Of a stretch of 64,000 nt of DNA, positions 10,860 to 58,100 are shown in pieces. Positions within the stretch are counted from its first letter, which is position 1, and every line of letters starts with the position of its first letter. The stretch comes from Aquabacterium sp. CECT 9606 (GTDB lineage: Bacteria > Pseudomonadota > Gammaproteobacteria > Burkholderiales > Burkholderiaceae_C): contig NZ_CAKKNB010000005.1 of NCBI RefSeq assembly GCF_918741295.1, forward strand, positions 62,001-126,000, written 5' to 3'. The position numbers and the translations under genes were made by a program. The notes beneath the pieces were generated by a model. The model searched no databases and was not told the origin of the DNA. It saw only the letters and a program-made list of their open reading frames with translations.

Positions 10860-10879
10860 AATTGTGCTAGCATGGTGAC

Positions 10880-11467: not shown

Positions 11468-11484
11468 GCCGGTGGCTTTTTTTT
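11466..11484 (+). terminator. Small hairpin with T-run after tetR
   Basis: AAGCC (11466-11470), loop GGT, GGCTT (11474-11478), running into a run of eight T (11477-11484). The stem is only 5 bp, so termination is probably partial. It would separate tetR from the SDR promoter. Confidence 0.45.
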
Positions 11485-11494
11485 AACCCGAAAA

Positions 11495-11510
11495 TATGAT
11501 GATCATCATA
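11495..11510. promoter_or_regulatory. Probable TetR operator, SDR copy
   Basis: TATGATGATCATCATA is a perfect 16-base palindrome 19 bases before the SDR start codon. It also contains a TATGAT hexamer that could serve as a -10 box. It is the ideal form of the site before tetR at 10844-10859. Confidence 0.75.
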
Positions 11511-11529
11511 AATTGTTAAGGACATCACC

Positions 11530-12237: not shown

Positions 12238-12267
12238 CCACAACACCACCCTGACAGGACCGCCGCC

Positions 12268-33970: not shown

Positions 33971-34618
33971 TCAGCTTTTTAGCAAGCCCTTGGTCTCGAT
34001 GAAAGCGATGACTTCATCCAGCCCGGCCTTGGTCTTGAGGTTGCTCATCACAAAGGGCCGCGCTGCGCGCATGCGCTTGGTGTCGGCCTCCATCACCTCC
34101 AGGTTGGCCCCCACGTGCGGCGCCAGGTCGGTCTTGTTGATGACGAACAAATCGCTCTTGGTGATGCCCGGACCACCTTTGCGCGGGATCTTCTCGCCCG
34201 CCGCCACATCGATCACGTAGATGGTCAGGTCGCTGAGCTCCGGGCTGAAGGTGGCGGCCAGGTTGTCACCGCCGGATTCGATGAAGACGATGTCGGCGTT
34301 GGGGTACTTGGCCAGCATGCGGTCGACGGCTTCCAGGTTGATGGAGGCGTCTTCGCGGATGGCGGTGTGCGGGCAACCGCCGGTTTCCACGCCCATGATG
34401 CGGTCGGGTTCCAGGGCGCCGGCCACGGTCAGCAGGCGTTGGTCTTCCTTGGTGTAGATGTCGTTGGTGACGACGACCAGGTCGTAGGTGTCGCGCATCC
34501 CCTTGCAGAGCATTTCAACCAAGGTGGTCTTGCCAGAGCCGACCGGGCCGCCCACGCCCACGCGCAAGGGGGGCAGTTTTTTGGTGCGGTTCGGGATGTT
34601 GTGCAGATTGGTGTTCAT
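33971..34618 (-). CDS. ureG: Urease accessory GTPase UreG
   Basis: SIMIBI-class GTPase (215 residues) that delivers nickel during urease activation. P-loop [10 protein letters not shown] at about residues 23-32, [17 protein letters not shown] with the Cys-Pro-His nickel site, then [17 protein letters not shown] and [12 protein letters not shown] (the NKTD guanine motif). Its start overlaps the ureF stop by 4 bases. Last gene of the ureEFG block. UreG normally works with UreF, UreD(H) and UreE; ureD is not found in the window. Confidence 0.96.
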
Positions 34619-35370
34619 GATCGGAATAGGCGTGAGTATTGGGTTTCATGCTGGCTGCTCAGGATGGCCAGCATGGGTGCAAAGGCTTGGCGCTGGCTGT
34701 CGGGCAAGGCGCAGGCGTGGTCAATGGCCGCGGGGATCTCGTCAATCAGACTTTGCAAGATGCGTTGGCCGGCGCTTTGGCCCAGGGGTACAGATTTGAT
34801 GGCGGCCTGCACCATGTTTTCGGCCCAGCCAAAGGCAAAGCTCAACAAAGTGTCCTTGACGATGTGGCTGTGAGAGGCCGTGCTGCCAGGGGTGTCGGGC
34901 AGGCACTGGGCCACGGCCAAGGCGAAGGCCACGGGCCAGGTGGGCGCGGGTTTCAATCCGGCGCATTGGGCCAGGCGCGGGTCGTTGGGGGCCACGGAGG
35001 CGCCGCGGTTGCGCACCCATTCCATCAGCGAGCGGCCCATCTGTTCGGCCTGCAGTTTCAACTCGGTGGTTTCGCGCGTGTGCGCCACCCAGTCGTTGAG
35101 CTCGGTGACGCGGCCCAGATCGTGGCGCTGCCAGGCGGGCAGGGCCTTGGCCACCACGGCCAAGTCGGCGCGGGCCAAGCTGAGGTGCAGTTGGTCGCGC
35201 AGCCAGGCGCCGGCGGTGGCCTCGTTGGTGACTCGGCCTGATTCGACGGCGGCCTCCAGCACTTCCGAGTAGCTGAAGCCGCCCACGGGCAAGGCGGGCG
35301 AGGCCAGCCACATCAGTTGGAGTCGGGCCGCGGCGCTCAAGGGCGCGGCGGCTGCCAGGACCTTGGGCAT
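34615..35370 (-). CDS. ureF: Urease accessory protein UreF
   Basis: All-helical urease maturation factor (251 residues) that works in the UreD-UreF-UreG activation complex. Family signs are [29 protein letters not shown] near the N-terminus and [30 protein letters not shown] towards the C-terminus. The start overlaps the ureE stop as TGATG and the stop overlaps ureG as ATGA, so the three accessory genes are translationally coupled. Confidence 0.95.
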
Positions 35371-35996
35371 CAGTGATCGTGGCCGTGGTTGCAGCCGGGG
35401 CCGTGAACGTGCGGCGCGGCGGTGGATTTCACGGCGATGCCAATGGGCTTGCCGCGCGCGGGTGCGTCCGGGGCGGCATGGCCGTGGTCGTGATGATCAT
35501 GCGAATGGGCATGGCCTTCATGGCCATGAGCGTGTCCGCCACCGGCCGCATAGGCCCCGCCTTCTGGTTCGAAGGTGGTAGTGGCTTCGACCACGGTGAG
35601 GTGCATGGACCGCAGCATGTCGGCCAGCACATGGTCGGGCTCGATCTTCAGGTGATCCGGCTGCAGTTCGATCTGCACATGGCGGTTGCCCAGGTGGTAG
35701 GCGGCGCGGGTCAGGTCAAAAGCGCTGCCATGCTCCGAGCAGGGCGTGATCACCAGCACCGGCTGAGGCTTGGCGGTGACGCGGATCAGCGAGCCGTCTT
35801 CGGCCACCAGCACGTCACCGCCGCGCACGGCGGTGCCACGGTTCAGAAAAATACCCAGTTGGCGGCCGGCGCTGTCGGTGGCGTCGAAGCGGCTTTTCTG
35901 GCGCACATCCCAGTCCAGCTCGACGGTGTGCGCGCGCTTGAGCAGCGCGTTGGCCAGGCCTTGGCCCTGAGGGAGAAGTTTGTTGACGGTCAGCAT
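35370..35996 (-). CDS. ureE: Urease accessory nickel chaperone UreE
   Basis: Nickel metallochaperone of 208 residues. N-terminal peptide-binding-like domain from [19 protein letters not shown], then the metal-binding domain with [26 protein letters not shown] and [19 protein letters not shown]. Two His-rich stretches close the protein: [19 protein letters not shown] and the final [13 protein letters not shown], which bind extra Ni(II). ATG 35996 fits the family; the frame stays open upstream without homology. It is separated from ureC by the DUF72 gene on the other strand, so it probably needs its own promoter. Confidence 0.94.
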
Positions 35997-36095
35997 GGCG
36001 AGCCCATTCGATACCTGTGCGGAGAGAGGGATAGTGTAAATACGGCAGGCCCTGCGCGCTGGGTGGTCATCATCGACCCTGGTAGTGTTTGGCCC

Positions 36096-36884
36096 ATGAG
36101 GACTGACATGCACGGCGCATGCCACTTTGATGCAGGGCGATGCCACATCGGATGCGCGGGCTGGGCCTTGCCCAAGGACGCGCAGGGCGCGTTCGCGCCT
36201 GAGGGCAGCCACCTGGAGCGTTACGCCAGCCGCTTGAACGCTGTGGAGATCAATTCCAGCTTCTACCGGTCGCACAAGCCGGCCACCTACGCTCGTTGGG
36301 CCGCCAGCGTTCCGCCGGCATTCCGCTTTTCCGTCAAGCTGCCCAAGGCCATCACCCACGAGCGCCGTCTGGGGGATTGCCAAGATCTGCTGGACACCTT
36401 TTTGACAGAGGCCGGGCAATTGGGCGAGAAGCTGGGATGCCTGCTGGTTCAATTGCCACCCAGCCTGGCTTTGCAAACCAAACAGGGCAACACATTCTTC
36501 GCCTCGCTGCGTGAGCGCCATGCGGGCCCCGTGGTGATCGAGCCCCGGCACACCAGTTGGTTCGGGCCGGAGGGCTCGGCACTGTTGTCTCAGCATGGCA
36601 TTGATCTGGTTCTGGCCGATCCGGCCCCCTGCGCTGGCGCGGCCTGGCCCTTGGTGCCCGAAGGCGGCCCATCTTCTCGCGTCGCCTACTATCGTCTGCA
36701 TGGTTCACCGCGCATTTACCACGATGCCTATGGCCAGGCCTATCTGCAGGCCTTGGCGCATCGGTTGCGGGCCGTTGCGCCACACTTTGCATCGGTCTGG
36801 TGCGTGTTCGACAACACTGCCCTGGGCGCGGCGATCTTCAATGCGCTGGAGCTCTTCAGCTCGCTGAACCGAATGCCGCCTTAG
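36096..36884 (+). CDS. DUF72 (YecE-like) family protein
   Basis: A 262-residue TIM-barrel-like protein of the DUF72/YecE family, function unknown. Family motifs are [73 protein letters not shown] and the final [10 protein letters not shown] 36096 is taken as start, with a close alternative at 36108; the frame is open far upstream, antisense to ureE, but without homology. It sits inside the urease cluster on the opposite strand, with its stop overlapping the ureC stop by 4 bases. Confidence 0.88.
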
Positions 36885-38608
36885 AACAAGAAATAGCGCT
36901 GCGCCATCGGCAGCACCGTGGCCGGCTCGCAAGTCAGCAACTGGCCATCGGCGCGCACCTGGTAGGTTTGCGCGTCAATCTCCATCACCGGCAGGTAGTC
37001 GTTGTGGACCATGTCCATCTTCTTGACACTGCGGCAGCCCTTGACGGCGGACACGGTTTTCTTCAAACCATATTGCTCGGGCAGGCCCGCGGCCACACCA
37101 GCCTGGCTCATGAACGTCAAGGAGGTGCGGGGCAGGGCGCCACCATGCGATCCGAACATCGAACGGTAATGCACCGGCTGCGGCGTGGGGATGGAGGCGT
37201 TCGGATCACCCATGGCGGCGGCCGCGATGAAGCCGCCCTTCAGGATGAGCGAAGGCTTGACCCCAAAAAATGCTGGGCGCCACACCACCAGATCGGCCCA
37301 TTTGCCTTCTTCGATGCTACCGACCTCGTGCGAGATGCCGTGCGCCAGCGCCGGGTTGATCGTGTACTTGGCCACATAGCGCTTGATGCGGGCGTTGTCG
37401 TGGCGGTCGGAGTCGCCAGGCAACTTGCCGCGTTGCGACTTCATCTTGTGGGCGGTTTGCCACGTGCGCATGATGACCTCGCCGACGCGGCCCATGGCCT
37501 GCGAGTCGGAACTGAACATGCTGATGGCGCCCAGGTCGTGCAGGATGTCTTCGGCGGCGATGGTTTCGCGGCGGATGCGGCTTTCGGCGAAGGCCAGGTC
37601 TTCGGCGATGGAGGCGTCCAGGTGGTGGCACACCATGAGCATGTCCAGGTGCTCGTCGATGGTGTTGACCGTGAAGGGCCGCGTCGGGTTGGTCGATGAA
37701 GGCAACACATTGGGCTCGCCCACCACCTTCATGATGTCGGGCGCATGCCCGCCGCCAGCGCCCTCCGTGTGGAAGCTGTGGATGGTGCGGCCCTTGAAGG
37801 CGGCCACTGTGTCTTCCACAAAGCCGGATTCGTTCAGGGTGTCCGAGTGGATGGCCACCTGGATGTCGGTCTCTTCGGCCACGCTCAGGCAGGTGTCGAT
37901 GGCAGCGGGCGTGGTGCCCCAGTCTTCATGCAGCTTCAGACCGATCACGCCGGCCTCGACCTGCTGGCGCAGGGCCTCGGGGCGGCTGGCATTGCCCTTG
38001 CCCAAAAAGCCCAGGTTCATGGGGAAGGCGTCGCCAGCCTGCATCATCAGCTTGATGTTCTCGGGGCCGGGCGTGCAGGTGGTGGCGAAGGTGCCGGTGG
38101 CCGGGCCAGTGCCGCCGCCGATCATGGTGGTCACCCCGCTCATCAGCGCTTCTTCGATCTGCTGTGGGCAGATGAAGTGGATGTGCGTGTCGATGCCACC
38201 AGCGGTCACGATCATGCCTTCAGCCGCGATGACCTCGGTGCCGGGGCCGACGACGATGTCCACGCCCGGTTGCACGTCGGGGTTGCCGGCCTTGCCGATC
38301 TTGAAGATGCGTCCGCTGCGCAGGCCGATGTCGGCCTTGACGATGCCCCAGTGGTCCAGGATCAAGGCATTGGTGAGCACGCAATCGACCGCGTCCATGG
38401 GGCCGGGGCCGTTGATGCGCTGGCTCTGGCCCATGCCGTCGCGGATGGTCTTGCCGCCGCCGAACTTGACTTCTTCGCCATAGCCGCCAGCGCGCAAGGT
38501 CAGGTCTTGTTCCACCTCGATGACCAAGTCGGTGTCGGCCAGGCGCAAGCGGTCACCCACGGTGGGGCCGAACATTTCAGCGTAGGCACGCCGTTGGATG
38601 GTTGCCAT
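36881..38608 (-). CDS. ureC: Urease alpha subunit
   Basis: Catalytic subunit (575 residues) with the bi-nickel centre. [14 protein letters not shown] gives the first two His ligands, Lys225 in [12 protein letters not shown] is the residue carbamylated to bridge the nickels, and [20 protein letters not shown] is the mobile flap with its conserved Cys-His-His; [13 protein letters not shown] supplies the Asp ligand region. All active-site residues I can check are present. It follows ureB by 22 bases. Its 3' end overlaps the convergent DUF72 gene, which interrupts the operon before ureEFG. Confidence 0.97.
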
Positions 38609-38630
38609 CAGAAAAAGTCCTTCGCCAAAA

Positions 38631-38936
38631 TCAGAGGGGGCCTTGGGTCAGGCCACGGAATCCATAGACGATGCGGTCGCCGGCGTAATCGACCAGTTCA
38701 ACGGTGCGCTGCTGGCCGGGCTCGAAGCGCACGGCGGTGCCCGAGGCGATGTTCAGGCGCATGCCATGGGCAGCGCCCCGGTCAAATCGCAGGCCGGCGT
38801 TGGTTTCGCTGAAGTGGTAGTGCGAGCCGACCTGGATGGGGCGGTCGCCCGTGTTTTCAACGACCAGGGTGATGGTGCGCCGGCCGGGATTGATGTCGTG
38901 GTCAGGGCCGTCGGTGATCAGTTCGCCAGGGATCAT
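38631..38936 (-). CDS. ureB: Urease beta subunit
   Basis: Structural subunit of 101 residues with the family start [20 protein letters not shown] and core [18 protein letters not shown] and [21 protein letters not shown]. Separate beta and gamma subunits are the bacterial pattern. It lies between ureJ (11 bases before) and ureC. Confidence 0.96.
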
Positions 38937-38947
38937 GGTGGGCTCCT

Positions 38948-39586
38948 TCAGAACACGACAGCGATAGCGGGGCTCAGGAGACCAAGGCCGAAGGTGGCGA
39001 CACCGATGCCTGCGACGCGGGGCAACCAGCGGCTGTGTTGGCGCAAAGCCAGCCCGAGGCCGATGCCGGCTGCGTGCAGGACCAGGGTGCTCAAGACCAT
39101 GCCGGTGAGCGCGGTGCCGGCCTGGCCGCCCAGCTCCTGGCCGTGCGCCAGCCCGTGGAAGAGGGCGAAACCGGCCACCAGTGCGGCGCCGATGCCGGTT
39201 GGCAGCTCGATGCGCGCGGCCACCAGCAGCCCCAGCGCCAGCAGCGAGGCGGCAATCATGGGTTCAACACCGGGCAATGCGACGCCGTTCAGGGCCATCA
39301 AAGCGCCCAACAACAAGGTGGTGGCAAACGCCAGTGGCACGGACAAAAGGCGCCCCGGACCACCCATTGACGATGTCTTGCCGCCCAGGCTCAAGGCACT
39401 CCACAAGCCCACACTGACCATGGCGGCTAAGTGGTCCAGGCCCGTCAGGGGGTGGGCGATGCCGACCATGAAGCTGCCCAAGGTGTCATGGGCGTGGCTC
39501 AATCCATCAGCCCCCATGTGCGCTTCGGCGGTAGACGCCAAAAAAGCAGTGGCCAAGATGGTGCGGTGAGCAAGGTGTTTGAGCAT
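38948..39586 (-). CDS. ureJ: HupE/UreJ family membrane protein
   Basis: A 212-residue protein with an N-terminal signal-like segment ending at AEAH, then about 6 TM helices. The signature [19 protein letters not shown] and the later [13 protein letters not shown] carry the His residues proposed to bind nickel. HupE/UreJ proteins are nickel permeases or metal-delivery proteins tied to urease and hydrogenase. ATG 39586 gives a normal signal peptide; 39640 would add a non-homologous stretch. Placement between ureA and ureB is common in Burkholderiales. Confidence 0.9.
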
Positions 39587-39659: not shown

Positions 39660-39962
39660 TTAGGCGATAGGTTGGTGCACTGTCACCAATTTGGTGCCAT
39701 CGGGGAAGGTCGCTTCCACCTGTATTTCAGGCACCATGTCGGCCACGCCGTCCATGACGTCATGGCGGCTCAGCACGGTTTTGCCTTCGCTCATCAAGGT
39801 GGCCACGGTTTTGCCGTCGCGGGCGCCTTCCATGATGGCGGCGGTGATCAAGGCCACAGCTTCCGGGTAATTCAGCTTGAGACCTCGGGCCTTGCGCCGC
39901 TCGGCCAGCAAGGCTGCCGTGAAGATCAGCAGCTTGTCTTTCTCTCGTGGGGTCAGTTCCAT
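39660..39962 (-). CDS. ureA: Urease gamma subunit
   Basis: Structural subunit of exactly 100 residues, [20 protein letters not shown] through [21 protein letters not shown] to VTVHQPIA, a near-textbook UreA. First gene of ureAJBC. In most Burkholderiales ureD lies just upstream; here the upstream neighbour is the divergent sensor kinase gene, only 52 bases away, so both promoters must share that short gap or lie within the genes. Confidence 0.97.
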
Positions 39963-39971
39963 TGTTGTTCT

Positions 39972-39987
39972 CGGCACCGAAATTGCG
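39972..39987 (+). promoter_or_regulatory. Candidate sigma-54 promoter for the sensor kinase
   Basis: CGGCACCGAAATTGC places GG (39973-39974) and GC (39985-39986) at the exact sigma-54 spacing, with CAC and TTGC matching the consensus TGGCAC-N5-TTGC except for the first T. Transcription would start about 17 bases before ATG 40015. Nitrogen-related genes often use sigma-54. No activator site was seen, and one such match can arise by chance in GC-rich DNA. Confidence 0.35.
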
Positions 39988-40014
39988 GCAGCGGCCGTTG
40001 ATGAAGTGCCCACT

Positions 40015-43000
40015 ATGCAAGACACACGCCAAATGAGTCCAGCCGCCGAACGGCGTATTGATGAACTGCCCGCCGCCGAAGAGGAGTCTTCCGCCGATTT
40101 GCTGGGAGACCAGGCCCTGCAACGCGTGGTCAAGGTGCGGCGCGACTACAACACCTGGGTTGGCAGCGAGACGCTGGAAGACTACGCCCTGCGCTTCACC
40201 CCCCGGTCTTTCCGGAAATGGAGCGAATGGCGGGTGGCCAACACCGCCTTTGGCGCGGCGTCCTTTCTGGTGCTGGAGGCCGTTGGCGCGACTCTGATGG
40301 TGGAGCACGGCTTCATCAACGCCTTGTGGGCCATCCTGGCCACGGGCTTGATCATCTTGCTGGCCGGCTGGCCGATCAGTGTTTACGCGGCCCGTCACGG
40401 CGTGGACATGGACCTGCTGACGCGCGGTGCGGGCTTTGGCTACATCGGCTCCACCATCACCTCGCTGATCTACGCCACCTTCACCTTCATCTTCTTCGCG
40501 CTGGAGGCCGCGATCATGGCCTACGCGCTGGAGTTGGCCTTCGACATCCCACCCGCCTGGGGCTACCTGATCTGCGCGGTGGTGGTGGTGCCGCTGGTCA
40601 CGCACGGGGTCACGGTCATCAGCCGATTGCAGGTGTGGACGCAACCGCTGTGGTTGGTGATGCTGGTGCTGCCTTACATCTACGTGTTCAAGGCGAACCC
40701 GCATGTGTTGAGCGACCTGGTGGGCTATGGCGGAGCGCAGGGGCAGGCGCCGGGTTTCAACCTCATGTCGTTTGGCGCGGCCATGACGGTGGGTGTGGCC
40801 CTGATCACGCAAATGGGCGAGCAGGCCGACTACCTGCGCTTCATGCCCGAGCGGCAGGCCCAGCACAAGGCGCGCTGGTGGTTCAGTGTGTTCATGGGCG
40901 GGCCGGGTTGGGTGATTCCGGGCGTGCTCAAGATGCTGGGGGGCACGGTGCTGGCCTACCTGGCTTTGAGCATGTCGGTACCGGCCGACCGCGCGGTCGA
41001 TCCCAATCAGATGTACCTTTTGGCCTACGAGTCGATGTTCTCGAATCTGAGCTGGGCGGTGGCCGCCACCTGCCTGTTCGTGGTCATCTCGCAGCTCAAG
41101 ATCAACGTTACCAACGCCTATGCCGGCTCGCTGGCCTGGTCCAACTTCTTCGCGCGCATCACGCACAGCCACCCGGGGCGCGTGGTCTGGGTGGTGTTCA
41201 ACACCATGATCGCCTTGATGCTGATGGAGCTGAACGTGTTCCAGGCCCTGGGGCGCGTGCTGGGGCTGTATTCCAACATCGCCATCGCCTGGATGATGGC
41301 CGTGGTGGCCGACCTGGTGATCAACAAGCCCATGGGTTGGTCGCCCAAAGGCATCGAGTTCAAACGGGCTTATCTGTATGACGTGAACCCGGTGGGCGTG
41401 GGCGCCATGAGCGCGGCGTCCATCCTGTCGGTGACGGCCTACCTGGGCTGGCTGGGGCCGATGGCGCAGGCCTTCTCCGCCTTGATCGCGCTGGTCACGG
41501 CTTTGGTCACTTCGCCGCTGATCGCCTGGTTCACCCAGGGGCGTTACTACATCGCCCGCCAAGCCGAACTCAAGGCACCCGGTTGCGAAACCTGTCCGTC
41601 CCGGCAAGGCACCAAGGGCGTTTACCGCTGCACGGTGTGCGAGCGCGAGTATGAAGGCGAGGACATGGCCCATTGCCCGGCCTACCAGGGCTTCATCTGC
41701 TCGCTGTGCTGCTCGCTGGATGCGCGCTGCCATGATCTGTGCAAACCGGAAGCGCGCTGGTCGGTGCAGTGGCGGGCCGTGGGGGAAAAGCTGCTGCCGG
41801 CCTTTGTCTGGCAACGTCTGGACACCGAGCTTGGCCATTTCATGCTGTTGATGGGTGGCTTGGTGCCCGCGCTGGCGCTGCTGTTCGCCCTGATCTTCAA
41901 CCACGAGTTGCGCGCTTTGGACCAACCGGCTACTGCAGGCTTGACCGATGCGCTGCAGAGCGGTTTCCTCAAGGTGTTTGCCGTGCTGTTGGTGATCTCG
42001 GGGGTGGTGGGCTGGTGGCTGGTGCTGGCGCACAAAAGCCGCAAGGTGGCGCAAGAAGAGTCCAACCGCCAGACTCACCTGCTGGTGCGCGAGGTGGAGC
42101 TGCACCGACGCACCGACGAAAAACTGCAGCAGGCCAAGCGCACCGCCGAGCAGGCCAATCAGGCCAAGAGCCGCTACATCTCGACCATCAGCCACGAGCT
42201 GCGCACACCGCTCAACAGCATCCTGGGCTACGCGCAGTTGCTGGACGAGGACCAGCGCCTGCCCGAGCACGCCAGGCATGGGGTGGAGGTGATCAAGCGC
42301 GGAGGAGACCATTTGCTGTCCTTGATTGAGGGCACCCTGGACATCGCCCGCATCGAAAGTGGCAAGCTGACGCTGGACGTCAAGCCCATGCGCCTGTTCG
42401 AGTCCCTGCAACAGATCATCAACATGCTGCAACCTCAGGCCTTGAGCAAGGGCCTGAGCTTTGAAGTGGAGCTGGACGCGGCCTTGCCTGAGGTGGTGCG
42501 GGCGGACGAGCGCCGCGTGCGCCAGATCCTGTTCAATGTGCTGGGCAACGCGGTGAAGTTCACCTCGCAAGGCGGCGTGAAATTCCGTGTCAGCTATGCG
42601 CGCGAGATTGCCTTGGTCGAGGTCATCGACACCGGGCCGGGCATCCCCATCGACGAGCTGGAGCGGGTCTTCGAGCCTTTTGCTCGTGGATCTTCCGTGG
42701 CGGGCTCATCGGTGGCGGGCACCGGCCTGGGGCTGACCATCAGCAAGATGCTCACCGACCTGATGGGCGGCGAGATGAAGGTCAGCAGTGTGGAGGGGCA
42801 GGGCACGGTGTTCCGCATTCGCCTGTTCCTGCCGCAGGTGCGGCTCACGCAGGCCGACCGCTCGGTGCCCTTGGGCGTGCGCACCGGCTATGTGGGCGAC
42901 CGCCGCCGCGTCTGGGTGGTGGACAATGAAGAGGCCGACCGTGGCTTGCTGGTGCGCATCCTGGAGCCTTTGGGCTTTGACGTCACCCCGCTTGCCTCCG

Positions 43001-43578
43001 GTGTCGAGTGCTTGGCCCTGTTGCGCAGTTGCCCGCAGGCGCAAGAGCCCCATGCGGTGCTGATGGACCTCGCCATGCCGGGCATCGACGGCTGGACCAC
43101 GATCCGCACGATCAAGCAGGAAGGCTTGAGCCGCGCGCCGATCGCCATCGTGTCGGCCAATGCCTTTGACAAGGGCATGGACAATGACGTGGGCATCGCC
43201 TTCGAAGATTTCATCGTCAAGCCCGTGCGCAAGGCGGAATTGCTGGATTGGCTGGGCCGGCGGCTGACTCTGCAATGGATCGAAGCGCAGCGCCCCACCA
43301 TTGGCACGCCCATGCTGGAGGCGGCTGCACAAAGTGCCGCGGGCGATGGCATGCAGGTGCTGCCATCGCTCAAGGCCTTGCAAAGCCTGGAAGAACTGAT
43401 CGACGCGGGCTACGTGCGCGGTGTGCACAAAACACTGGACCAGATCGCGGCGGCCGAACCCCAATGCGAAGCCTTTGTTCAAAACATGCGCCACCTGGCC
43501 AGACAGTTCCAGCTGGACGCCTTGGCCGATGCCGTCAAGCGGGCGCTGGTGCAGTTCCATGCACAATCGCGCCCATGA
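40015..43578 (+). CDS. NCS1-transporter-like hybrid sensor histidine kinase/response regulator with Cys-rich module
   Basis: A 1,187-residue membrane sensor. Residues about 60-520 form a 12-TM NCS1 (cytosine/purine/hydantoin) permease-like domain ([35 protein letters not shown]). Residues 524-577 hold ten cysteines: C-x2-C, x11, C-x2-C, x11, then C-x7-C-x2-CC-x5-C-x3-C, a probable metal-binding module. Two more TM helices (about 605-690) and a coiled coil lead to the HisKA domain with His727 ([19 protein letters not shown]), HATPase_c ([29 protein letters not shown]) and a receiver domain with Asp1018. ATG 40015 is 52 bases from divergent ureA. The stop overlaps the next gene (ATGA). Its place between urease and urea transport genes suggests it senses urea, a purine-breakdown product, or nitrogen flux. 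Confidence 0.9.
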
Positions 43579-44534
43579 TCCCGATGCTTGACCGACTCGA
43601 CCGCAGCCGCACCGACGTCGTGCTCATCGTCGATGACGTGCCCGACAACCTCTCGCTCTTGCACGACGCGCTGGACGAGGCGGGCTACACGGTGCTGGTG
43701 GCCACGCATGGCGAAGCGGCCTTGCAGCGCGCCAGCCAGTCGGTGCCCGACATCATCCTGCTGGACGCCCTGATGCCCGGCATGGACGGTTTTGAAGTGG
43801 CGCGCCGCCTGAAGGCGCAGCCCGAAACCAGCCACATCCCCATCGTCTTCATGACTGGCCTCACCGAGACCGAGCACGTGGTGGCCGCCTTCGACGCTGG
43901 TGGCGTGGACTACGTCACCAAGCCGATCCGGCCTCGAGAAGTGCTGGCACGCATCGTTTCTCACATGGCCAGCGCCCGGCAGGCGCGCCAGGCCCGCAAT
44001 GCCCTGGACGCTTTTGGCCACGCATCGATGACGGTGCGCTTGTCTGATGGCCGCGTGATGTGGCAGACGCCCTTGGCGCGCAAGCTCTTGCAGCAGTACT
44101 TCGAGACGCCCGAGACCGTGGCGCCCGATGAGCTGGTGGCGTGGCTGCGCCAGGTCACGCCCAGCGCTTTGGCCGACATGGCCACGGGCAAGCCGCCACC
44201 ATCCTGGCTGGTGCAGCAAGGTGGCCGGCGCCTGAGCTTTGCCTTGCACGAACCCACGGGCGACGACAACTGGTTGCTGGTGATGCGAGAGACTTCAGAC
44301 GAAGCGGCGATTGAGGCCTTGACCCAGGAGCTCAAACTCACGGCCCGCGAAGGCGAGGTGCTTTATTGGGTGGTCAAAGGCAAGACCAACCGCGACATCG
44401 GCGACATCCTGGGCACCAGCCCGGCCACGGTCAAAAAGCAGCTGGAACACGTGTTCGCCAAGCTCGGCGTTGAGACCCGCACCGCGGCGGCTGGCCTCGC
44501 CATGAGCCGCGTGGGCCAACTGAAAATGCGCTGA
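43575..44534 (+). CDS. Response regulator with receiver and LuxR-type HTH domains
   Basis: A 319-residue regulator: receiver domain at 14-135 (acidic pair Asp20/21, phospho-acceptor Asp64 in LLDALMPGMDGFE, Lys in YVTKPIRP), a middle section of about 100 residues that looks PAS-like and unassigned, then a C-terminal LuxR/NarL HTH at 253-315 (LTAREGEVLYWVVKGKTNRDIGDILGTSPATVKKQL). ATG 43575 overlaps the kinase stop, so the two proteins are made together and form a phosphorelay. The palindrome before urtA (47052-47069) is a candidate target. Confidence 0.92.
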   Translation: MIPMLDRLDRSRTDVVLIVDDVPDNLSLLHDALDEAGYTVLVATHGEAALQRASQSVPDIILLDALMPGMDGFEVARRLKAQPETSHIPIVFMTGLTETEHVVAAFDAGGVDYVTKPIRPREVLARIVSHMASARQARQARNALDAFGHASMTVRLSDGRVMWQTPLARKLLQQYFETPETVAPDELVAWLRQVTPSALADMATGKPPPSWLVQQGGRRLSFALHEPTGDDNWLLVMRETSDEAAIEALTQELKLTAREGEVLYWVVKGKTNRDIGDILGTSPATVKKQLEHVFAKLGVETRTAAAGLAMSRVGQLKMR

Positions 44535-47051: not shown

Positions 47052-47069
47052 ATACGCCATGTGGCGTAT
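47052..47069. promoter_or_regulatory. Palindromic operator candidate upstream of urtA
   Basis: ATACGCCA-TG-TGGCGTAT is a perfect 8-bp inverted repeat with a 2-base centre, 77 bases before the urtA ATG and 39 bases before the divergent spermidine-synthase-like gene. The size suits a LuxR/NarL-type dimer, so the response regulator at 43575-44534 is a natural candidate. No second copy was seen near ureA. Confidence 0.55.
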
Positions 47070-47146: not shown

Positions 47147-48424
47147 ATGAACATCTCTCGTCGCAATGCCACCCAATCGCTGACGGCCGTCGCTTTGGGC
47201 GTGGCCGGCCTGCTCGTCGGTTCCCTGGCCCATGCCGCCGACACGATCAAGGTCGGTGTGCTGCATTCGCTGTCGGGCACCATGGCCATCTCGGAAACCG
47301 TCCTGAAGGACGTCGCCCTGATGACCATCGATGAAATCAACGCCAAGGGCGGCCTGCTGGGCAAGAAGCTGGAACCCGTGGTCGTTGACCCTGCGTCCAA
47401 CTGGCCCCTGTTCGCCGAAAAGGCCAAGCAACTGATCAGCCAGGACAAGGTTGCCGTGACCTTCGGCTGCTGGACCTCGGTGAGCCGCAAGTCGGTGCTG
47501 CCAGTGTTCAAGGAACTCAACAGCGTGCTGTTCTACCCCGTGCAGTACGAGGGTGAAGAGCTGGAAAAGAACGTGTTCTACACCGGCGCTGCGCCCAACC
47601 AGCAAGCCATTCCCGCCGTTGAATACCTGATGAGCAAGGACGGCGGCAGCGCCAAGCGCTTCGTGCTGCTGGGCACCGACTACGTCTATCCCCGCACCAC
47701 GAACAAGATCCTGCGCGCCTTCCTGAAATCCAAGGGCGTGAAGGACGAGGACATCATGGAGGAGTACACCCCCTTCGGTCACTCGGACTACCAGACCATC
47801 ATCGCCAACATCAAGAAGTTCGCCTCCAGCGGCAAGAAGACGGCCGTGGTCTCGACCATCAATGGCGATTCGAACGTGCCTTTCTACAAGGAGCTGGGCA
47901 ACCAGGGCCTGAAGGCGTCGGACGTGCCCGTCGTGGCCTTCTCGGTCGGTGAAGAAGAACTGCGCGGCGTGGACACCAAGCCCCTGGTCGGCCACCTGGC
48001 CGCCTGGAACTACTTCATGAGCATCAAGAACCCGACCAACGCCGAGTTCATCAAGAAGTGGTCCGCCTACGCCAAGGCCAAGAACATCGCTGGCCACAAG
48101 GACAAGCCCCTGACGAATGACCCGATGGAAGCCACCTACATCGGCATCAACATGTGGGCCCAGGCCGTCAAGAAGGCCGGCAGCACGGACACCGACAAGG
48201 TCATCGCCGCCATGGCCGGCCAGACCTTCAAGGCGCCCGGTGGCTTCACCTCCACGATGGACGCCAAGAACCACCACTTGCACAAGCCCGTGTTCATCGG
48301 TGAAATCAAGGCCGACGGCCAGTTCAAGGTGGTCTGGAAGACCCCTGGCCCGATCAAGGCCCAACCCTGGAGCCCCTACATCGCCGGCAACGACGTGAAG
48401 AAGGACGAGCCAGAAACCAAGTGA
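47147..48424 (+). CDS. urtA: Urea ABC transporter substrate-binding protein
   Basis: Periplasmic urea-binding protein (425 residues). A signal peptide runs from MNISRRNATQSLT to AHA-AD around residue 29. The mature protein has the branched-chain-amino-acid-type binding fold, beginning IKVGVLHSLSGTMAISE with TFGCWTSVSRKSVLPVF and LFYPVQYEGEE, typical of UrtA. AGGAG (47134-47138) precedes ATG 47147. A strong hairpin follows it (48480-48509), which would make urtA the most abundant product of the operon, as binding proteins need to be. Confidence 0.96.
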   Translation: MNISRRNATQSLTAVALGVAGLLVGSLAHAADTIKVGVLHSLSGTMAISETVLKDVALMTIDEINAKGGLLGKKLEPVVVDPASNWPLFAEKAKQLISQDKVAVTFGCWTSVSRKSVLPVFKELNSVLFYPVQYEGEELEKNVFYTGAAPNQQAIPAVEYLMSKDGGSAKRFVLLGTDYVYPRTTNKILRAFLKSKGVKDEDIMEEYTPFGHSDYQTIIANIKKFASSGKKTAVVSTINGDSNVPFYKELGNQGLKASDVPVVAFSVGEEELRGVDTKPLVGHLAAWNYFMSIKNPTNAEFIKKWSAYAKAKNIAGHKDKPLTNDPMEATYIGINMWAQAVKKAGSTDTDKVIAAMAGQTFKAPGGFTSTMDAKNHHLHKPVFIGEIKADGQFKVVWKTPGPIKAQPWSPYIAGNDVKKDEPETK

Positions 48425-48553: not shown

Positions 48554-50155
48554 GTGAAACGATTCGACGCAGCACGCACGCTGAGCCTGGCCATGCTGGT
48601 CACCCTCGGCTGCCTGACAAGCCCGGCGCACGCCTTGACGCCGGAAGAAGCCCACGCGGTCTCGGCTGGCGACAACGACGCCCGCATCCAGGCCTTGCAA
48701 AAGCTGATCCCCAAGAACGACGCGCGCCTGCCCATCCTGGTCCAGGCGCTTTTGAACGACAGCGTCAAGGTTTCGGGCGACAAAACCTACATCCTCGAAG
48801 ACGACAAGGTGCTGGACGCCGCCACCGGCCAGCCCACTACCTTGCCCGAAGATGCTGAAGACGTCACCAACAATGGCCGCATGAGCGGCGAGCTGGAAGC
48901 GGTGCTGGCCGTGGGCAAGCTGCTCTCGCCAGACGTGGCCGTGCGCGCTGAGGCCATCAAGACCATCGCGCAGAGCGTAGACGAGGCCAAGCTGCCGATG
49001 ATCGACAAGGCCTTGGCTTCGGAGTCCGATCCCCAACTCAAGACGCAGCTGCAGAACCTGCGCGCCAAGGCACTGCTCAGTGGCACTGATGCCGCCAAGC
49101 GCATCGAAGCCGCGCAGGAACTGGCTGCCAGCGCCGATCCTGAAACCAAGGCCCTGCTGATGGAGCGCCTGCAAGACGGCGTCGAAACCGATCCTCAGGT
49201 CAAGATTGAGGTGCAGAAGTCGCTCGACTCCATCGCCAGCCGCCTGGCCTGGGGCGACCGCGCTGGCGTGCTCTTCACCGGCATCAGCCTGGGTTCGATC
49301 CTGCTGCTGGCCGCGCTGGGCCTGGCCATCACCTATGGCCTGATGGGTGTGATCAACATGGCCCACGGCGAGCTGATGATGATCGGCGCTTATGCCACCT
49401 ACGCCGTGCAGAACCTGTTTCGCAGCCACCTGCCGGGCGCCTTCGACTGGTACATCCTGGCCGCCATCCCCGCATCCTTCATGGCCGCGGCCCTGGTGGG
49501 CGCGGTGCTGGAGCGCACCGTGATCCGCTTCCTCTACGGCCGCCCGCTGGAAACGCTGCTGGCCACCTGGGGCATCAGCCTGGTGCTGATGCAAGCGGTG
49601 CGCGGCCTGTTTGGCGCACAGAACGTGCAGGTCGAGAACCCGGCCTGGATGTCGGGCGGCTTCAACGTGCTGAGCAACCTCACGCTGCCCTACAACCGCC
49701 TCGCCATCATCGCCTTTGCAGGCCTGGTGTTGCTGGGCATGACCTTGCTGATCGCCAGGACGCGCATGGGCCTCTTTGTGCGCAGCGTGACGCAGAACCG
49801 TCCGATGGCCGCCTGCGTGGGCGTCAACACCGCCCGCATCGACACCATGGCCTTCTCGTTGGGCGCGGGCATCGCCGGCCTGGCGGGTTGCGCGCTGTCG
49901 CAGGTGGGCAATGTGGGCCCGGACCTCGGCCAGAACTACATCGTGGACTCGTTCATGGTGGTGGTGCTGGGCGGCGTCGGCCAGATCGCAGGCACTGTGT
50001 ACGCCGCGATGGGCCTGGGCATCTTCAACAAGCTGCTGGAAGGCTGGGCCGGTGCGGTGCTGGCCAAGATCATGGTCCTGATGTTCATCGTCGTCTTCAT
50101 CCAGAAGCGTCCCCAAGGTTTGTTTGCCATGAAGGGCCGGAGCGCCGAAGCATGA
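48554..50155 (+). CDS. urtB: Urea ABC transporter permease UrtB
   Basis: Inner-membrane permease of 533 residues. It has a signal-like N-terminus and an extra-cytoplasmic helical region up to about residue 230, with HEAT-like helices, and then the LivH-type permease domain (LGLAITYGLMGVINMAHGELMMIGAYA, RPLETLLATWGISLVLMQ, VVVLGGVGQIAGTVYAA). The long N-terminal region is a normal UrtB feature. It starts at GTG 48554 with a GGAACA site upstream. Its stop overlaps urtC as ATGA. Confidence 0.95.
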   Translation: MKRFDAARTLSLAMLVTLGCLTSPAHALTPEEAHAVSAGDNDARIQALQKLIPKNDARLPILVQALLNDSVKVSGDKTYILEDDKVLDAATGQPTTLPEDAEDVTNNGRMSGELEAVLAVGKLLSPDVAVRAEAIKTIAQSVDEAKLPMIDKALASESDPQLKTQLQNLRAKALLSGTDAAKRIEAAQELAASADPETKALLMERLQDGVETDPQVKIEVQKSLDSIASRLAWGDRAGVLFTGISLGSILLLAALGLAITYGLMGVINMAHGELMMIGAYATYAVQNLFRSHLPGAFDWYILAAIPASFMAAALVGAVLERTVIRFLYGRPLETLLATWGISLVLMQAVRGLFGAQNVQVENPAWMSGGFNVLSNLTLPYNRLAIIAFAGLVLLGMTLLIARTRMGLFVRSVTQNRPMAACVGVNTARIDTMAFSLGAGIAGLAGCALSQVGNVGPDLGQNYIVDSFMVVVLGGVGQIAGTVYAAMGLGIFNKLLEGWAGAVLAKIMVLMFIVVFIQKRPQGLFAMKGRSAEA

Positions 50156-51291
50156 GTGCCGTTCTTACATCCCCCAAGCTGTCGCAGATCACCGTGCCCC
50201 ACAGCGCCCTGGGCGCCAAAGGCTGGAGCGGCGTCATGCTGGCCATCATCGTGGTCTGCCTGCTGGTGCCCGTGCTCAACCTGATGGTGCCGGTCGATTC
50301 GGCCTTCCACCTGTCGGATTACGCCGTGGGCCTGGTCGCCAAGATCATGTGCTACGCCATCTGTGCGCTGGCCATGGATTTGATCTGGGGTTACACCGGC
50401 ATCCTGTCGCTGGGCCACGGTTTGTTCTTTGCGCTGGGCGGCTATGCCATGGGCATGTACCTGATGCGCCAGATCGGCCGCGACGGCAGCTACAAGTCTG
50501 ATCTGCCCGACTTCATGGTCTTCCTGGACTGGAAGGAAGTGCCCTGGCACTGGGCCTGGAGCGAGTCTTTCATCGGCCAGATGCTGCTGGTGATCCTGGT
50601 GCCAGGCCTGCTGGCCTTCATCTTCGGCTTCTTCGCCTTCCGCTCGCGCATCAAGGGGGTGTACTTTTCGATCATCACCCAGGCGATGACCTACGCGGCC
50701 ATGCTGCTGTTCTTCCGCAATGAAACTGGTTTTGGTGGCAACAACGGCTTCACCGATTTCAAGCGCATCCTGAACATCCCCCTGCAGCAACCCTCGACAC
50801 GCATGGTGCTGTTCATCATCACGGGCTTGACGCTGGTCGGCTTCTACCTGATGGCTCGATGGCTGGTGAACACCAAGTTCGGCCGTGTGCTGCAGGCCAT
50901 CCGCGATGCCGAGAACCGGGTCATGTTCTGCGGCTACAACCCGCTGGCCTACAAGCTCGCCATCTGGACGTTGTCGGCCGTGATGTGCGGCATCGCAGGC
51001 GCCTTGTACGTGCCACAGGTCGGCATCATCAACCCGGGTGAAATGTCGGCCGCGGCGGGCATCGAGATGGCCATCTGGACGGCCGTGGGCGGGCGTGCCT
51101 CGCTGATCGGCCCCATCGTTGGCGCCTTCTTCGTCAACGGCGCCAAGAGCTGGCTGACGGTCGCTTACCCCGAGTTCTGGCTGTACTTCCTGGGCCTGCT
51201 GTTCATCCTGGTCACGCTGCTGTTGCCGCAAGGCATCGTTGGCGGCCTGAAGAAGTTGTTCAACAAAAACGCACCGGAGACCAAGGCATGA
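50152..51291 (+). CDS. urtC: Urea ABC transporter permease UrtC
   Basis: Second permease subunit, LivM-type, 379 residues with about 9 TM helices. ALAMDLIWGYTGILSLGHGLFFALGGYAMGMY and FRNETGFGGNNGFTDF are typical UrtC stretches, as is AIWTAVGGRASLIGPIVGAF near the end. ATG 50152 overlaps the urtB stop and the stop overlaps urtD, so subunits are translationally coupled. Confidence 0.95.
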   Translation: MSAVLTSPKLSQITVPHSALGAKGWSGVMLAIIVVCLLVPVLNLMVPVDSAFHLSDYAVGLVAKIMCYAICALAMDLIWGYTGILSLGHGLFFALGGYAMGMYLMRQIGRDGSYKSDLPDFMVFLDWKEVPWHWAWSESFIGQMLLVILVPGLLAFIFGFFAFRSRIKGVYFSIITQAMTYAAMLLFFRNETGFGGNNGFTDFKRILNIPLQQPSTRMVLFIITGLTLVGFYLMARWLVNTKFGRVLQAIRDAENRVMFCGYNPLAYKLAIWTLSAVMCGIAGALYVPQVGIINPGEMSAAAGIEMAIWTAVGGRASLIGPIVGAFFVNGAKSWLTVAYPEFWLYFLGLLFILVTLLLPQGIVGGLKKLFNKNAPETKA

Positions 51292-52187
51292 CGCCCGATC
51301 TGATGGAAGCCGGGGTGCAAACCCTGAACAAGGCCAAGGGCCTGCCCGTGGCGAGCGAGTCGGGTGGCCGCGAGGCCAGCTATGGCCGCGTCCACACGCC
51401 CGGCGAGCTGGACCTGGCCCACGGCTCGATCCTCTACGTGGACGACATCACCGTCAGCTTCGATGGCTTCCGTGCGCTGAACAAGCTGTGCCTGAACATC
51501 GCGGCCGGCGAGATGCGCTGCATCATCGGCCCCAACGGCGCGGGCAAGACCACGATGATGGACGTGATCACCGGCAAGACCAAGCCAGACGCCGGCACGG
51601 CCTATTTCGGTTCAACCATCGACCTGCTGGCCATGCGCGAGAACGAGATCGCCCGCATCGGCATCGGCCGCAAGTTCCAGAAGCCCACGGTGTTCGAGCA
51701 ACTCAGCGTGTTCGAGAACCTGGAGCTGGCCCTGAAGGCCGACCGCCGCGCGCGCTCGTCGGTGTTCTTCAAGCTGAACAGCGAACAGCTCGACCGCATC
51801 GGCGAGATGCTCAAGCTGATCCACCTGCGCGAGCAGGCCCAGCGCACGGCCGGCCTGCTGTCGCACGGTCAGAAGCAATGGCTGGAGATCGGCATGTTGC
51901 TGATGCAGGACCCCAAGCTGCTGCTGCTCGATGAGCCTGTGGCCGGCATGACCGACGAGGAAACCGAACGCACCGCCGAACTCTTCCTGTCGCTGGAAGA
52001 AGAAGGCTCGCACTCGCTCGTGGTTGTGGAGCACGACATGAAGTTCATCAACGAACTGACCACGCAAGGCAAGAACGCCGCCAAGAAGAAGGTGACGGTG
52101 CTGCACGAGGGTTCGGTGCTGGCCGAAGGCACGCTGGCCGATGTGCAGGCCAATGACAAAGTCGTTGAAGTCTATTTGGGTCGCTGA
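51288..52187 (+). CDS. urtD: Urea ABC transporter ATP-binding protein UrtD
   Basis: ATPase subunit (299 residues). After an N-terminal extension of about 45 residues come Walker A GPNGAGKTT, the signature LSHGQKQWLEIGMLLMQ, Walker B LLLLDEPVAGM and the switch VVEHDM. The signature is LSHGQ rather than LSGGQ, which is usual for UrtD. It overlaps urtC by 4 bases and lies 6 bases before urtE. Confidence 0.95.
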   Translation: MTPDLMEAGVQTLNKAKGLPVASESGGREASYGRVHTPGELDLAHGSILYVDDITVSFDGFRALNKLCLNIAAGEMRCIIGPNGAGKTTMMDVITGKTKPDAGTAYFGSTIDLLAMRENEIARIGIGRKFQKPTVFEQLSVFENLELALKADRRARSSVFFKLNSEQLDRIGEMLKLIHLREQAQRTAGLLSHGQKQWLEIGMLLMQDPKLLLLDEPVAGMTDEETERTAELFLSLEEEGSHSLVVVEHDMKFINELTTQGKNAAKKKVTVLHEGSVLAEGTLADVQANDKVVEVYLGR

Positions 52188-52193
52188 TCAATC

Positions 52194-52898
52194 ATGCTGA
52201 ACGTCGAACAAGTCAATCAATACTACGGCGGCTCCCACATCCTGCGCGGCCTGGGCTTCGAGGCCAAGCTGGGCGAGGTCACTGTGGTGCTGGGCCGCAA
52301 TGGTGTGGGCAAGACCACCTTGCTGAAAAGCCTGATGGGCGTGGTGTCCATCAAGTCCGGCTCGATCAAGCTGGACGGCCAGCCCATCGACAAGCTCAAG
52401 CCCTACGAGCGCGTGCGCCTGGGCGTGGGCTATGTGCCGCAAGGCCGCGAAATCTTTGGCCGCCTCACGGTCGAGGAAAACCTGCAGATGGGCCTGGCCA
52501 GCAAATCCGGCGGCACGCCTTTGCCCGAGCAATTGTTCGAACTCTTCCCGGTGCTCAAGCAGATGCTGCACCGCCGTGGCGGTGACCTGTCCGGTGGCCA
52601 GCAGCAGCAATTGGCCATCGCCCGCGCTTTGGCGGCCGGCCCCAAGCTGCTGATCCTGGACGAGCCCACCGAAGGCATCCAGCCCAGCATCATCAAGGAC
52701 ATCGGCCGCGCCATCCGCAAGCTGGCCGACGAAGGCCTGAACGGCCAGAAGATGGCCGTGGTGCTGGTGGAGCAGTTTTACGATTTCGCGGCGGAGCTGG
52801 CCGACCAGTACCTGGTCATGGAAAGGGGCGAAATCATCAAGCGCGGCCGGGGCGCCGACATGGAAGCCGATGGTGTGCGCCAATTGATGTCCATTTGA
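52194..52898 (+). CDS. urtE: Urea ABC transporter ATP-binding protein UrtE
   Basis: Second ATPase subunit (234 residues) with Walker A GRNGVGKTT, signature LSGGQQQQLAIARAL, Walker B LLILDEPTEGIQPSII and VLVEQF. Starts MLNVEQVNQYYGGSHILRG as is typical for UrtE. It closes the urt operon. In many relatives ureD follows here, but the next gene is a PEP-CTERM protein 138 bases on. Confidence 0.95.
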   Translation: MLNVEQVNQYYGGSHILRGLGFEAKLGEVTVVLGRNGVGKTTLLKSLMGVVSIKSGSIKLDGQPIDKLKPYERVRLGVGYVPQGREIFGRLTVEENLQMGLASKSGGTPLPEQLFELFPVLKQMLHRRGGDLSGGQQQQLAIARALAAGPKLLILDEPTEGIQPSIIKDIGRAIRKLADEGLNGQKMAVVLVEQFYDFAAELADQYLVMERGEIIKRGRGADMEADGVRQLMSI

Positions 52899-55180: not shown

Positions 55181-58100
55181 ATGCCGATCTTGAGTAAATC
55201 TGCCGGTACCGTCATCGCTGTGTGGGGCAAGGCGTTCTACCACCTGCCCAATGGCAAATTGGTGCCAGTCAAGGTGGGCGACCACATTGAAGGTGGTGAA
55301 GCAATCCTGACCAGCCAGGACGGTATCGTCAAAATCGCGGCCAGCGATGGCCCCACCGTTTTGTTGAAAGCCAAATTGGCGGCCAGCGATACTGACAAGG
55401 TCATCGAGGGCCTCAATAACGACGAACTGGATTTCAATACCGCGGCGGGCCTGCAAGGCGGCGGCGGTGGCGGGTTGCTGCCCGGCTTGCGTGTCGATCG
55501 GGTTTCTGAATCCGTGACTGGCCAGGAATACCAATACGGCACCGAGCGCGCAGCGCCCACGGTGCCGTTTGCGGCTGTTGAACAGCCCTTGTATCCGGCG
55601 GCCGAGGTCGAGGCGCCTCTCGTGCCCATATTGCGTGTCTTGAGCGATCCGGTGGTGGAAGGGCAGGACGCGGTGTTCTCCGTGCAATTGAACGTGGCGT
55701 CTGCCGAGTCGATCACGTTTTCGCTGAGCCTGCGGCCCGGTCTTGATCCCGCCACATCGGCGACTTTGTCGGGCGACGACGCGGATATCGGTGAAGTTCA
55801 GTATTTCAACAGCGCCACAAATCAGTGGGTCACCTATGTGGCTGGCAGTGAGCTCACCTTCAAACCCGGTGAGACCGAGATTCTGGTGCGTGTGGTCACC
55901 AACGACGACAGTGTCCGCGAGTCGCTTGAATACTTCATCCTGAATGCGCACGTGACCAGCGGAACGGTCCAGAACGTTGATGACCTGGGTCAAGCGGACG
56001 CTTCCAATGAGATCACGCTGATCGACAACGAGGCACCTCCGTTGACGGCGCAGTTGGACCCCGGCTCTGACAGCGGCACCAAGGGTGATGGCATTACCAA
56101 CGATTCCACGCCGACGATCCGTGGCACGGGCGAGCCTGGCAACGAAATCATCGTCGTCATGCCTGGCACAGGTGAGACGCTGACGTCCACTGTCCAGCCT
56201 GATGGCAGTTGGAGCGTCACACCGCTCACGGAGCTCCCCAACGGCACCAGCGGCACGGCTCAGGTCACTGCGACGGACTCGGCAGGCGACAGCACCACGG
56301 TCACGGTGCCATTGAGCATTGACAACGCGCCTCCAGCGGTGTTGACGGCCCAGCTCGATCCGTCGTCCGACAGCGGCGTTCAAGGGGATGGCATCACCAG
56401 CGACACCACCCCCACGATCAGCGGCACGGGCGATCCGGGGGCGCAAATCAAGGTGACCATGCCCGGCACTGGCGAAGCTTTGACCACGGTGGTTCAGCCC
56501 GATGGCAGCTGGAGCGTTACGCCTGCGCAGGCCATTCCCAATGGCACGACGGGCCAGGTTCAGGTCACCGAGACCGATGCCGCGGGCAATGCAACGCAAA
56601 CCACGGTTCCCTTGAGTGTTGACACAGGCGCGCCCAACAGTGGCGTTGCCCCATTGGTCACCATCACAGAAGATGCCAACAACGATGGCTTCGTTAATCG
56701 AGGCGAGTTGAAGGGCGATGTGGACGTCAAAGTGACGTTCAACCCGTCGCAAGTGAGCCTGGGCGACGTGGTCAAGATCACTTCCGGTGGCGTCACCAAC
56801 GACGTGACGATCGGGGAAGTGGACTTGGCCAACGGCTTTGTCAGCACCACCTTCCTGGCCCCGGCCAACGGCACGACGATGACGGCGAGCGCCTTCATCA
56901 TGGATGCCGCTGGTAATGCAAGCGCCTCGGGCGTTGACGTTGCCAAGCTGGATCTGAGTACGCTCAGTGGTTTGAGCGTTGGCATCATCACCGATGCGAA
57001 CGACGATGGGTTCATCAACCAGAGCGAACTGGCGGGCGGGCAGACGGCTGTTGCTCAGGTCAAGCTCCCACCTGACGCCGTGGCTGGCGATTTGCTGACC
57101 ATCACCAGCACAGGCAGTTCGACCCAAACCATCACACTGACGCAGTCGCACATCGATGCCGGGCAGTTGCAGGTGAGCGTTCCTGTTCCGGCCAGTGGCG
57201 CGGAACTCAAGGTCACCGCGCAAGTGAGTGATGCGGCAGGCAACCAGTCCGCCGTGGCCACCGACCAGGCTGTTGTCGCGACGGATGATATTTTGGCGCC
57301 CAAGGTCACGATCGGTGAAGACGCCAACAACGATGGCTTCATCAACAAGGCCGAACTGAACGGCAACATCGACGTGTCGGTGGCCCTGCCTGCCACGGTC
57401 AAGGCGGGCGACAGCCTGCTGGTCAGTGCCAATGGCGCCTCCCAAGCCCCCATCGTGCTGACACAAGCCGACATCGACAAGGGCAGCGTGGCCATTCCTG
57501 GCATCAGCAGCCCAGGTGAGGGCAGTATCTTGACGGTGACCGCCCAAGTCAAGGATGTGGCGGGCAACCTGGGTGCCATCGGCAGCGACAGCGCCAAGGT
57601 GGACACCACGGCGCCTGCGATCCTGACGGCGCAATTGGACCCGGCTTCAGACAGCGGCACCCAAGGCGATGGCATCACCAACGATGCCACGCCCACCATC
57701 AGCGGCACGGGCGATGCTGGCGCACACATCAAGGTGACCATGCCCGGCACCGGCGAAGTGCTGACAACCACAGTGCAATCCAATGGCACCTGGACGGTCA
57801 CGCCCACGCAAGACATTGCCAACGGCACAGTGGGCCAAGCCCAGGTCACCGAGACCGATGCTGCTGGCAACACGACGCAAACCACGGTCTCGCTGAACAT
57901 CGACACGGGTGTGCCCAACAACGGCGCAGCACCGACCGTGACGATCACGGAAGACGCCAACAACGATGGCTTCATCAACAAGGCCGAGCTGAACGGCAAT
58001 GTGGACGTGAAGGTGGCGTTCACGCCAGCACAAGTGAGCATTGGTGATGTGGTCAAGGTCACCTCTGGTGGCGTGACCAAAGACATCGTCATCACATTGA

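Follow-up and report, generated by a model that had tools for sequence, protein, structure and literature searches.

What does a histidine kinase sense when its membrane part is shaped like a permease, and which genes answer to it when it is encoded between urease and urea importer genes? This question is raised by a locus of Aquabacterium sp. CECT 9606, located in a 64,000-nt stretch of contig NZ_CAKKNB010000005.1 (hereafter the window, whose coordinates are used below). The answer we favor, with a probability of roughly 0.6 and on the strength of sequence comparison and a structural model, is that the kinase is a urea/amide receptor whose partner regulator switches on the urt importer genes. 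The kinase and its regulator are laid out as follows (aa, amino acids; TM, transmembrane helices; HTH, helix-turn-helix).

40015..43578, plus strand: NCS1-like transporter-fused hybrid histidine kinase, 1187 aa (open reading frame, codon score, Pfam)
40120..41559, plus strand: NCS1-like 12-TM domain, residues 36-515
41629..41742, plus strand: Cys8 module (C539, C542, C554, C562, C565, C566, C572, C576)
41827..42147, plus strand: two extra helices, residues ~605-634 and 641-711 (AlphaFold model)
42163..42363, plus strand: HisKA with phospho-acceptor His727 (Pfam; His in 102/102 aligned kinases)
42505..42831, plus strand: HATPase_c (Pfam)
42910..43248, plus strand: receiver domain with Asp1018 (Pfam; Asp in 97/99 group A and B rows, a gap in the other 2)
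43575..44534, plus strand: LuxR/NarL-type response regulator, 319 aa (Pfam receiver and LuxR (GerE) HTH)

The first-pass annotation had placed the membrane domain, a cysteine cluster, two helices, the HisKA/HATPase core and the receiver in one protein, and the reading frame at 40015-43578, its Pfam matches (HisKA 717-783, HATPase_c 831-939, Response_reg 966-1078) and the AlphaFold model bear this out. An in-frame ATG at 40033 is an alternative start. The second extra helix continues in the model as a long helix up to HisKA. The protein has what defines a hybrid histidine kinase, namely HisKA with its His, HATPase_c, a receiver with its Asp and an adjoining LuxR-type regulator. The two reading frames, both large and coding by codon score, overlap by 4 bases (ATGA, 43575-43578), in agreement with the coupling that had been proposed.

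The NCS1 label that had been given to the membrane domain is unsafe by Pfam sequence test, because PF02133 was matched at E<=1 by 0/30 alignment members including the window kinase; the label was rescued by fold and by sequence bridges. Residues 1-542 matched no Pfam family even at E<=10, and the window protein matched no NCBIfam model. Against PDB, phmmer with this protein returned a single chance row, an antigen-binding fragment (Fab) light chain (E 0.31), and a profile search returned two chance rows only (2ibo_A, E 1.5; CWC24, E 3.3). PF02133 matched in 17 of 60 genomes of the same bacterial family, and not in the window's genome. As for the bridges, the PF02133 cut-off was reached by free-standing relatives of the sensor domain (L282, L275 and L276). 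The 497-aa permease of L282 matched the NCBIfam ncs1 model at 2.5e-16, below that model's cut-off, and the kinase profile aligned by hhalign with L282 at 2.3e-33 across 445 columns and with L276 at 7.6e-14. A paralogue of the kinase in the window's own genome matched the NCBIfam cytosine permease model with E 1e-6 and 27.8 bits, far below the 326-bit cut-off. The AlphaFold model (residues 36-712, 62 sequences, predicted local distance difference test (pLDDT) 79.4, predicted template modeling score (pTM) 0.81) retrieved the NCS1 permeases Mhp1 and CodB at Foldseek ranks 1-5. These also held the top four VIA Z values (29.7 to 24.0), all others being <=22.9 (Nramp ~22, CHT1 20.9, urea carrier DUR3 20.7). 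NCS1 is thus favored over other LeuT-fold families by the fold, sequence homology to NCS1 is statistically supported, and no SLC5 (SSS) domain was detected in the kinase. By sequence and model, then, the membrane domain is NCS1-like; it differs from Mhp1 and CodB, its best fold matches, in lacking a PF02133 match and in carrying a C-terminal signaling module. Directly behind L282:2449-5668, which among the free-standing permeases seen is nearest to the sensor domain, comes a carbon-nitrogen hydrolase gene, a hint that the substrate of that NCS1 branch is of the amide type.

Does such a domain still transport? The rival that survives best holds that the domain combines active import with sensing and so acts as a true transceptor, with transport flux and not simple binding as the signal. 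We do not expect this, yet it would be no great surprise. The full 12-TM core is retained in the kinase, and, gaps aside, 108 positions are invariant over 137 rows; of these, 94 precede the Cys module and some form an N-x-x-N-A-Y-x-G-S-x-A stretch. The hydrolase gene behind the L282 permease also speaks for it, as does CbrA, which transports histidine (PMC7918813). However, conservation cannot tell binding from transport, and the transporter domain of Ks-Amt5, as a section heading words it, binds without translocating (PMC5764959).

Urease and urea importer genes lie on either side of the kinase and its regulator.

39660..39962, minus strand: ureA, divergent from the kinase gene (Pfam Urease_gamma)
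33971..39586, minus strand: ureG, ureF, ureE, ureC, ureB and HupE/UreJ
47147..48424, plus strand: urtA (TIGR03407 over cut-off)
48593..52898, plus strand: urtB, urtC, urtD and urtE

As annotated before, ureA and the kinase gene are separated by 52 bases (39963-40014), and urtABCDE, all of which reach NCBIfam cut-offs, start 2612 bases past the regulator stop, behind FapA-like and spermidine-synthase-like genes. The sensor part was matched in 85 of 150 genomes of the bacterial family (83 with a kinase-type match) and in 53 of 398 Pseudomonadota genomes (52 with a kinase-type match); the free-standing permeases among the family hits (G065, G029) and the phylum hits (G340:C40), and a 94-aa fragment (G380), were not counted as kinases. 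Neighbors were counted by tblastn on 137 loci with 136 kinase places, the window left out. Note that our own codon-model gene calling was unreliable for L266, L276, L284 and largely L273, and that L100 and L279 overlap. Within 3 kb and divergent from the kinase, ureA was found at 59 places and the gene of a urea/amide substrate-binding protein (SBP) at 52, and 111/136 places were divergent from ureA or a urea/amide importer gene at this distance. At 18 others urea/amide genes lay elsewhere in the locus, 3 were at a contig edge, and at 4 (L041, L062, L074, L094) the stretch read contained none. Outside the family, 41 of 45 kinase places (combined by hand) had urease, urt or formamidase-type genes no more than 8 kb away; two of the remaining four were contig edges, one had such genes at 10 kb, and at one (G344) none were found. 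The link to urea genes that the first-pass annotation pointed out is conserved far beyond the window's genome. On a FastTree tree, the neighbor labels required 18 changes, against 62.3 in shuffles, and none of 200 shuffles was as low.

The second kinase copy in the window's genome (51% identity over residues 34-1175) stands divergent to genes for a UrtA-type SBP (TIGR03407 over cut-off), UrtB, more importer components and formamidase (NF045496 over cut-off). Because the branch of this paralogue goes with formamidase and an importer of UrtA type, the kinases look like urea/short-amide rather than purine sensors. As a control for linkage, 118 places of the same genome match the kinase; besides the two kinases, the two operon regions contain only three of these, the partner regulator of each kinase and an additional regulator (C4:198436, inside L039), as read by hand. 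A third, smaller branch (L136-L138, L277, L278) is near a formamidase-like gene (52-55% identity) and has no adjoining regulator in the gene tables. Its kinases in L136-L138 (878-914 aa) have the same membrane and Cys parts without the receiver region, and in L137 the only Pfam match is HATPase_c. In a Curvibacter locus (L147), both kinase paralogues (2245-5619 and 9998-13441) occur ~4.4 kb apart. A link to viruses was dropped, as none of 22 pattern matches in viral contigs encodes a relative.

Which genes does the regulator control? A candidate site stands before urtA.

47053..47068, plus strand: palindromic box TACGCCATGTGGCGTA, putative regulator binding site upstream of urtA (perfect match)

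This is the sole match in the window at <=1 mismatch, and 0/100 shuffles have one. The palindrome TACGCCANNTGGCGTA precedes urtA, and a sister version precedes the formamidase-linked SBP gene. At <=2 mismatches, TACGYCANNTGRCGTA was found upstream of 59/63 urtA, 41/47 SBP and 14/125 ureA genes, with shuffled means of 0.6, 0 and 0.4, respectively (five shuffles per set, by our own segment-swap routine). These sets include 80 loci that partly repeat species of the family sample; in the family loci and the window only, the counts are 26/28, 24/26 and 9/63. Among the urtA regions, a CTAGCAT-like -10 element follows the box at near-constant distance, which places the box where activators usually bind. 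When 150 genomes were scanned for the exact pattern TACGCCANNNNGCGTA <=400 bases upstream of urtA, it was found in 48/68 cases in genomes with a group A kinase, the group of the window kinase, and in 3/36 without one. For this contrast the nominal p of 4.5e-10 is only indicative, since kinase-linked urtA genes were used in tuning the pattern and the genomes are not independent by descent; 51 of 84 exact-pattern places lie before urtA. The three genomes with the box and no group A kinase are G062, G040 (74% complete) and G027, of which only G062 encodes a close regulator homologue (52%); in G062 nothing matches the kinase's NCS1 part. Judged from box conservation and placement, the regulator probably turns on urt. 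Two regulator homologues (52-53% identity) occur in genomes without an NCS1 kinase (G062:C3:4795-5676, G084:C58:40313-41266). The ure-linked regulator has ~115 residues between receiver and HTH (about 129-243; window 43959-44303) that match no family; the formamidase-linked regulator, at 202 aa, is too short for this segment.

The region between the kinase and ureA shows elements of another kind.

40016..40031, minus strand: sigma-54-like -24/-12 box TGGCGTGTGTCTTGCA, directed to ureA, overlapping the kinase start (0 mismatches)
39972..39987, plus strand: weaker sigma-54-like box, directed to the kinase (2 mismatches; better matches in relatives)

The pattern TGGCRYNNNNNTTGCW, taken as the sigma-54 consensus, was found at <=1 mismatch upstream of ureA in 89/125 regions on the ureA strand and 62/125 on the opposite strand, against 5 in shuffled regions; upstream of urtA and the SBP gene it was found in 3/63 (shuffled 1.4) and 1/47 (shuffled 1.0). 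With sigma-54-like boxes at ureA and the palindrome at urtA, nitrogen control appears to govern the urease genes and the kinase operon, and the kinase to govern urt. The first-pass annotation had the kinase setting both urease and Urt expression. Direct control of urease by the regulator, from the shared region, is favored by the divergent arrangement at 59 places and by the box in 14 ureA upstream regions. However, the box is absent from the other 111, its best match upstream of the window ureA has 4 mismatches, and sigma-54-like boxes are frequent there. By these upstream sequences we consider direct urease control rather unlikely; it is less supported than control of urt, the half of the claim that probably stands.

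In the mechanism that we propose, the N-terminal part would descend from an NCS1 permease, with urea binding in the transporter pocket and possibly still being moved, and in the paralogous branch the pocket would bind formamide or another short amide. A ligand-driven change in conformation would pass through the cytoplasmic Cys8 module (probably holding two zinc ions) and the two-helix hairpin to the HisKA/HATPase core. Phosphate would then move from His727 to the internal receiver and on to the co-transcribed LuxR-type regulator, which in its phosphorylated form would bind TACGCCANNTGGCGTA around position -40 of urtA and activate, rather than repress, the genes of the high-affinity urea importer. 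Opposed sigma-54-type promoters may serve the kinase operon and ureA, in which case nitrogen limitation would supply the machine and urea the trigger.

Several points weigh against this proposal. The box was first spotted by visual inspection of the sequences in which it was then counted, and kinase-linked urtA genes guided the tuning of the exact pattern, so that the contrast is inflated; the exact box is absent from 20 of the 68 kinase-linked urtA genes. In the window's own genome, box counts at <=1 mismatch are no higher than those of a reversed control, for which reason genome-wide enrichment of the box was rejected; matches occur in 69/150 genomes, in many of which the control exceeds the box (e.g., G096, G143), and what sets the box apart is solely where it stands. 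Chance by itself would yield roughly one perfect sigma-54-like box per window, and 58 of 100 whole-window shuffles have one. Finally, when the ure-linked branch (63 rows) is compared with the formamidase-linked one (50 rows), their sensor domains differ consistently (>=90% agreement within each branch) at only 7 positions, and all these changes are fairly conservative. Such few and mild differences fit a pocket for the shared carboxamide group and fit one common signal equally, so the pocket may take the same ligand in both branches or respond to some other signal. The near identity of the sensor cores across branches with different neighbors is likewise what would be seen if the kinase read ammonium, the general nitrogen state or occupancy of the ABC importer instead of urea. 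We hold this to be improbable, since two paralogues in one genome, each by a different amide operon, would be redundant for one signal.

A sensor of purine, hydantoin or allantoin, with urea genes as downstream targets, draws on NCS1 kinship and had been suggested by the first-pass annotation, but it is a poor candidate: the neighbors that were sought, and turned up, encode urease, urea/amide importers and formamidase, no supporting neighbor was seen (purine-catabolic genes were not searched for), and the formamidase beside the paralogue lies outside purine breakdown. An NCS1 gene (L098:13484-14770) near the G001 kinase was dropped as a purine clue; the genes that come after it resemble those of thiamine biosynthesis.

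The module that joins the sensor to the kinase core had been described as ten cysteines at residues 524-577. Ten are indeed present (524, 527, 539, 542, 554, 562, 565, 566, 572 and 576), but only the eight from 539 to 576 are conserved, being invariant in 102/102 aligned kinases, the window counted; C524 and C527 are Cys in 1/70 group A rows (the window only) and 0/32 other rows. That this module senses nickel, zinc or redox state and matches urease to metal supply, as the first-pass annotation suggested for metals, is hardly to be expected: in its favor, the eight Cys are confined to the NCS1-like kinase family in the 28 genomes searched, but the formamidase-linked branch keeps the same module, formamidase is not known as a nickel enzyme, and the fold matches, weak as they are (E 0.18 or worse), are mostly structural zinc fingers (RING, PHD, FYVE, LIM), which the module may resemble.

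Two side observations on the window remain. UrtB (48593-50155) has a ~230-residue N-terminal extension before its permease domain with a HEAT_2 match (E 2.9e-7), and an open frame of at least 2940 aa (55181-64000) continues past the window end.

How does the kinase compare with known systems? The SLC5/STAC histidine kinases CbrA, CrbS/MxtR and RpuS (PMC7918813, PMC5715377, PMC9100948; CbrA structure, PMC13022988) likewise join a LeuT-fold transporter domain to a histidine kinase; CrbS, a hybrid whose LuxR-family regulator CrbR needs an imperfect inverted repeat, is a close working parallel, and RpuS/R, like the proposed system, controls an importer gene. In contrast, the window kinase is NCS1-like and not SLC5, is linked to urea and formamide genes, and has the Cys8 module and two helices in the linker place of STAC and PAS. 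Ks-Amt5 (PMC5764959) also uses a nitrogen-compound transporter as a histidine kinase sensor, but its Amt domain belongs to a different transporter family. The Methylophilus cluster fmdCABDEF, induced by formamide and urea, combines formamidase with an importer for short amides and urea as the paralogue locus does; a putative positive regulator is named there, whereas histidine kinase and two-component terms are absent from the main text of the review (PMC10781810). Ectopseudomonas guguanensis G3 has, in the annotation given in part of its report, hybrid histidine kinase and LuxR genes with no assigned role beside urtABCDE/fmdA (PMC13296017), the same kind of gene order, likened here by annotation and not by kinase sequence. 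In the open-access literature, which leaves most subscription journals outside, we found no paper on an NCS1-type kinase, nor in that literature any account of how these bacteria sense urea before taking it up with high affinity through Urt. The window kinase would add an NCS1 type to the transporter-fused kinases described so far (CbrA, CrbS, Ks-Amt5).

For the family as a whole we tentatively suggest, with slightly less than even confidence, that there is a phylum-wide set of NCS1-derived transceptors for carboxamides (urea, formamide), whose duplicated LuxR regulators would read TACGCCA-N2-TGGCGTA or TACGTCA-N2-TGACGTA, switching one importer per amide behind a sigma-54 nitrogen gate, with a Cys8 zinc module in place of STAC/PAS as mechanical coupler. 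A named kinase, regulator and DNA box, together with the paralogue pair, make urea sensing directly testable. NCS1 joins the LeuT-fold families fused to kinases, which allows a comparison, from one family to another, of how a transporter pocket is coupled to a kinase.

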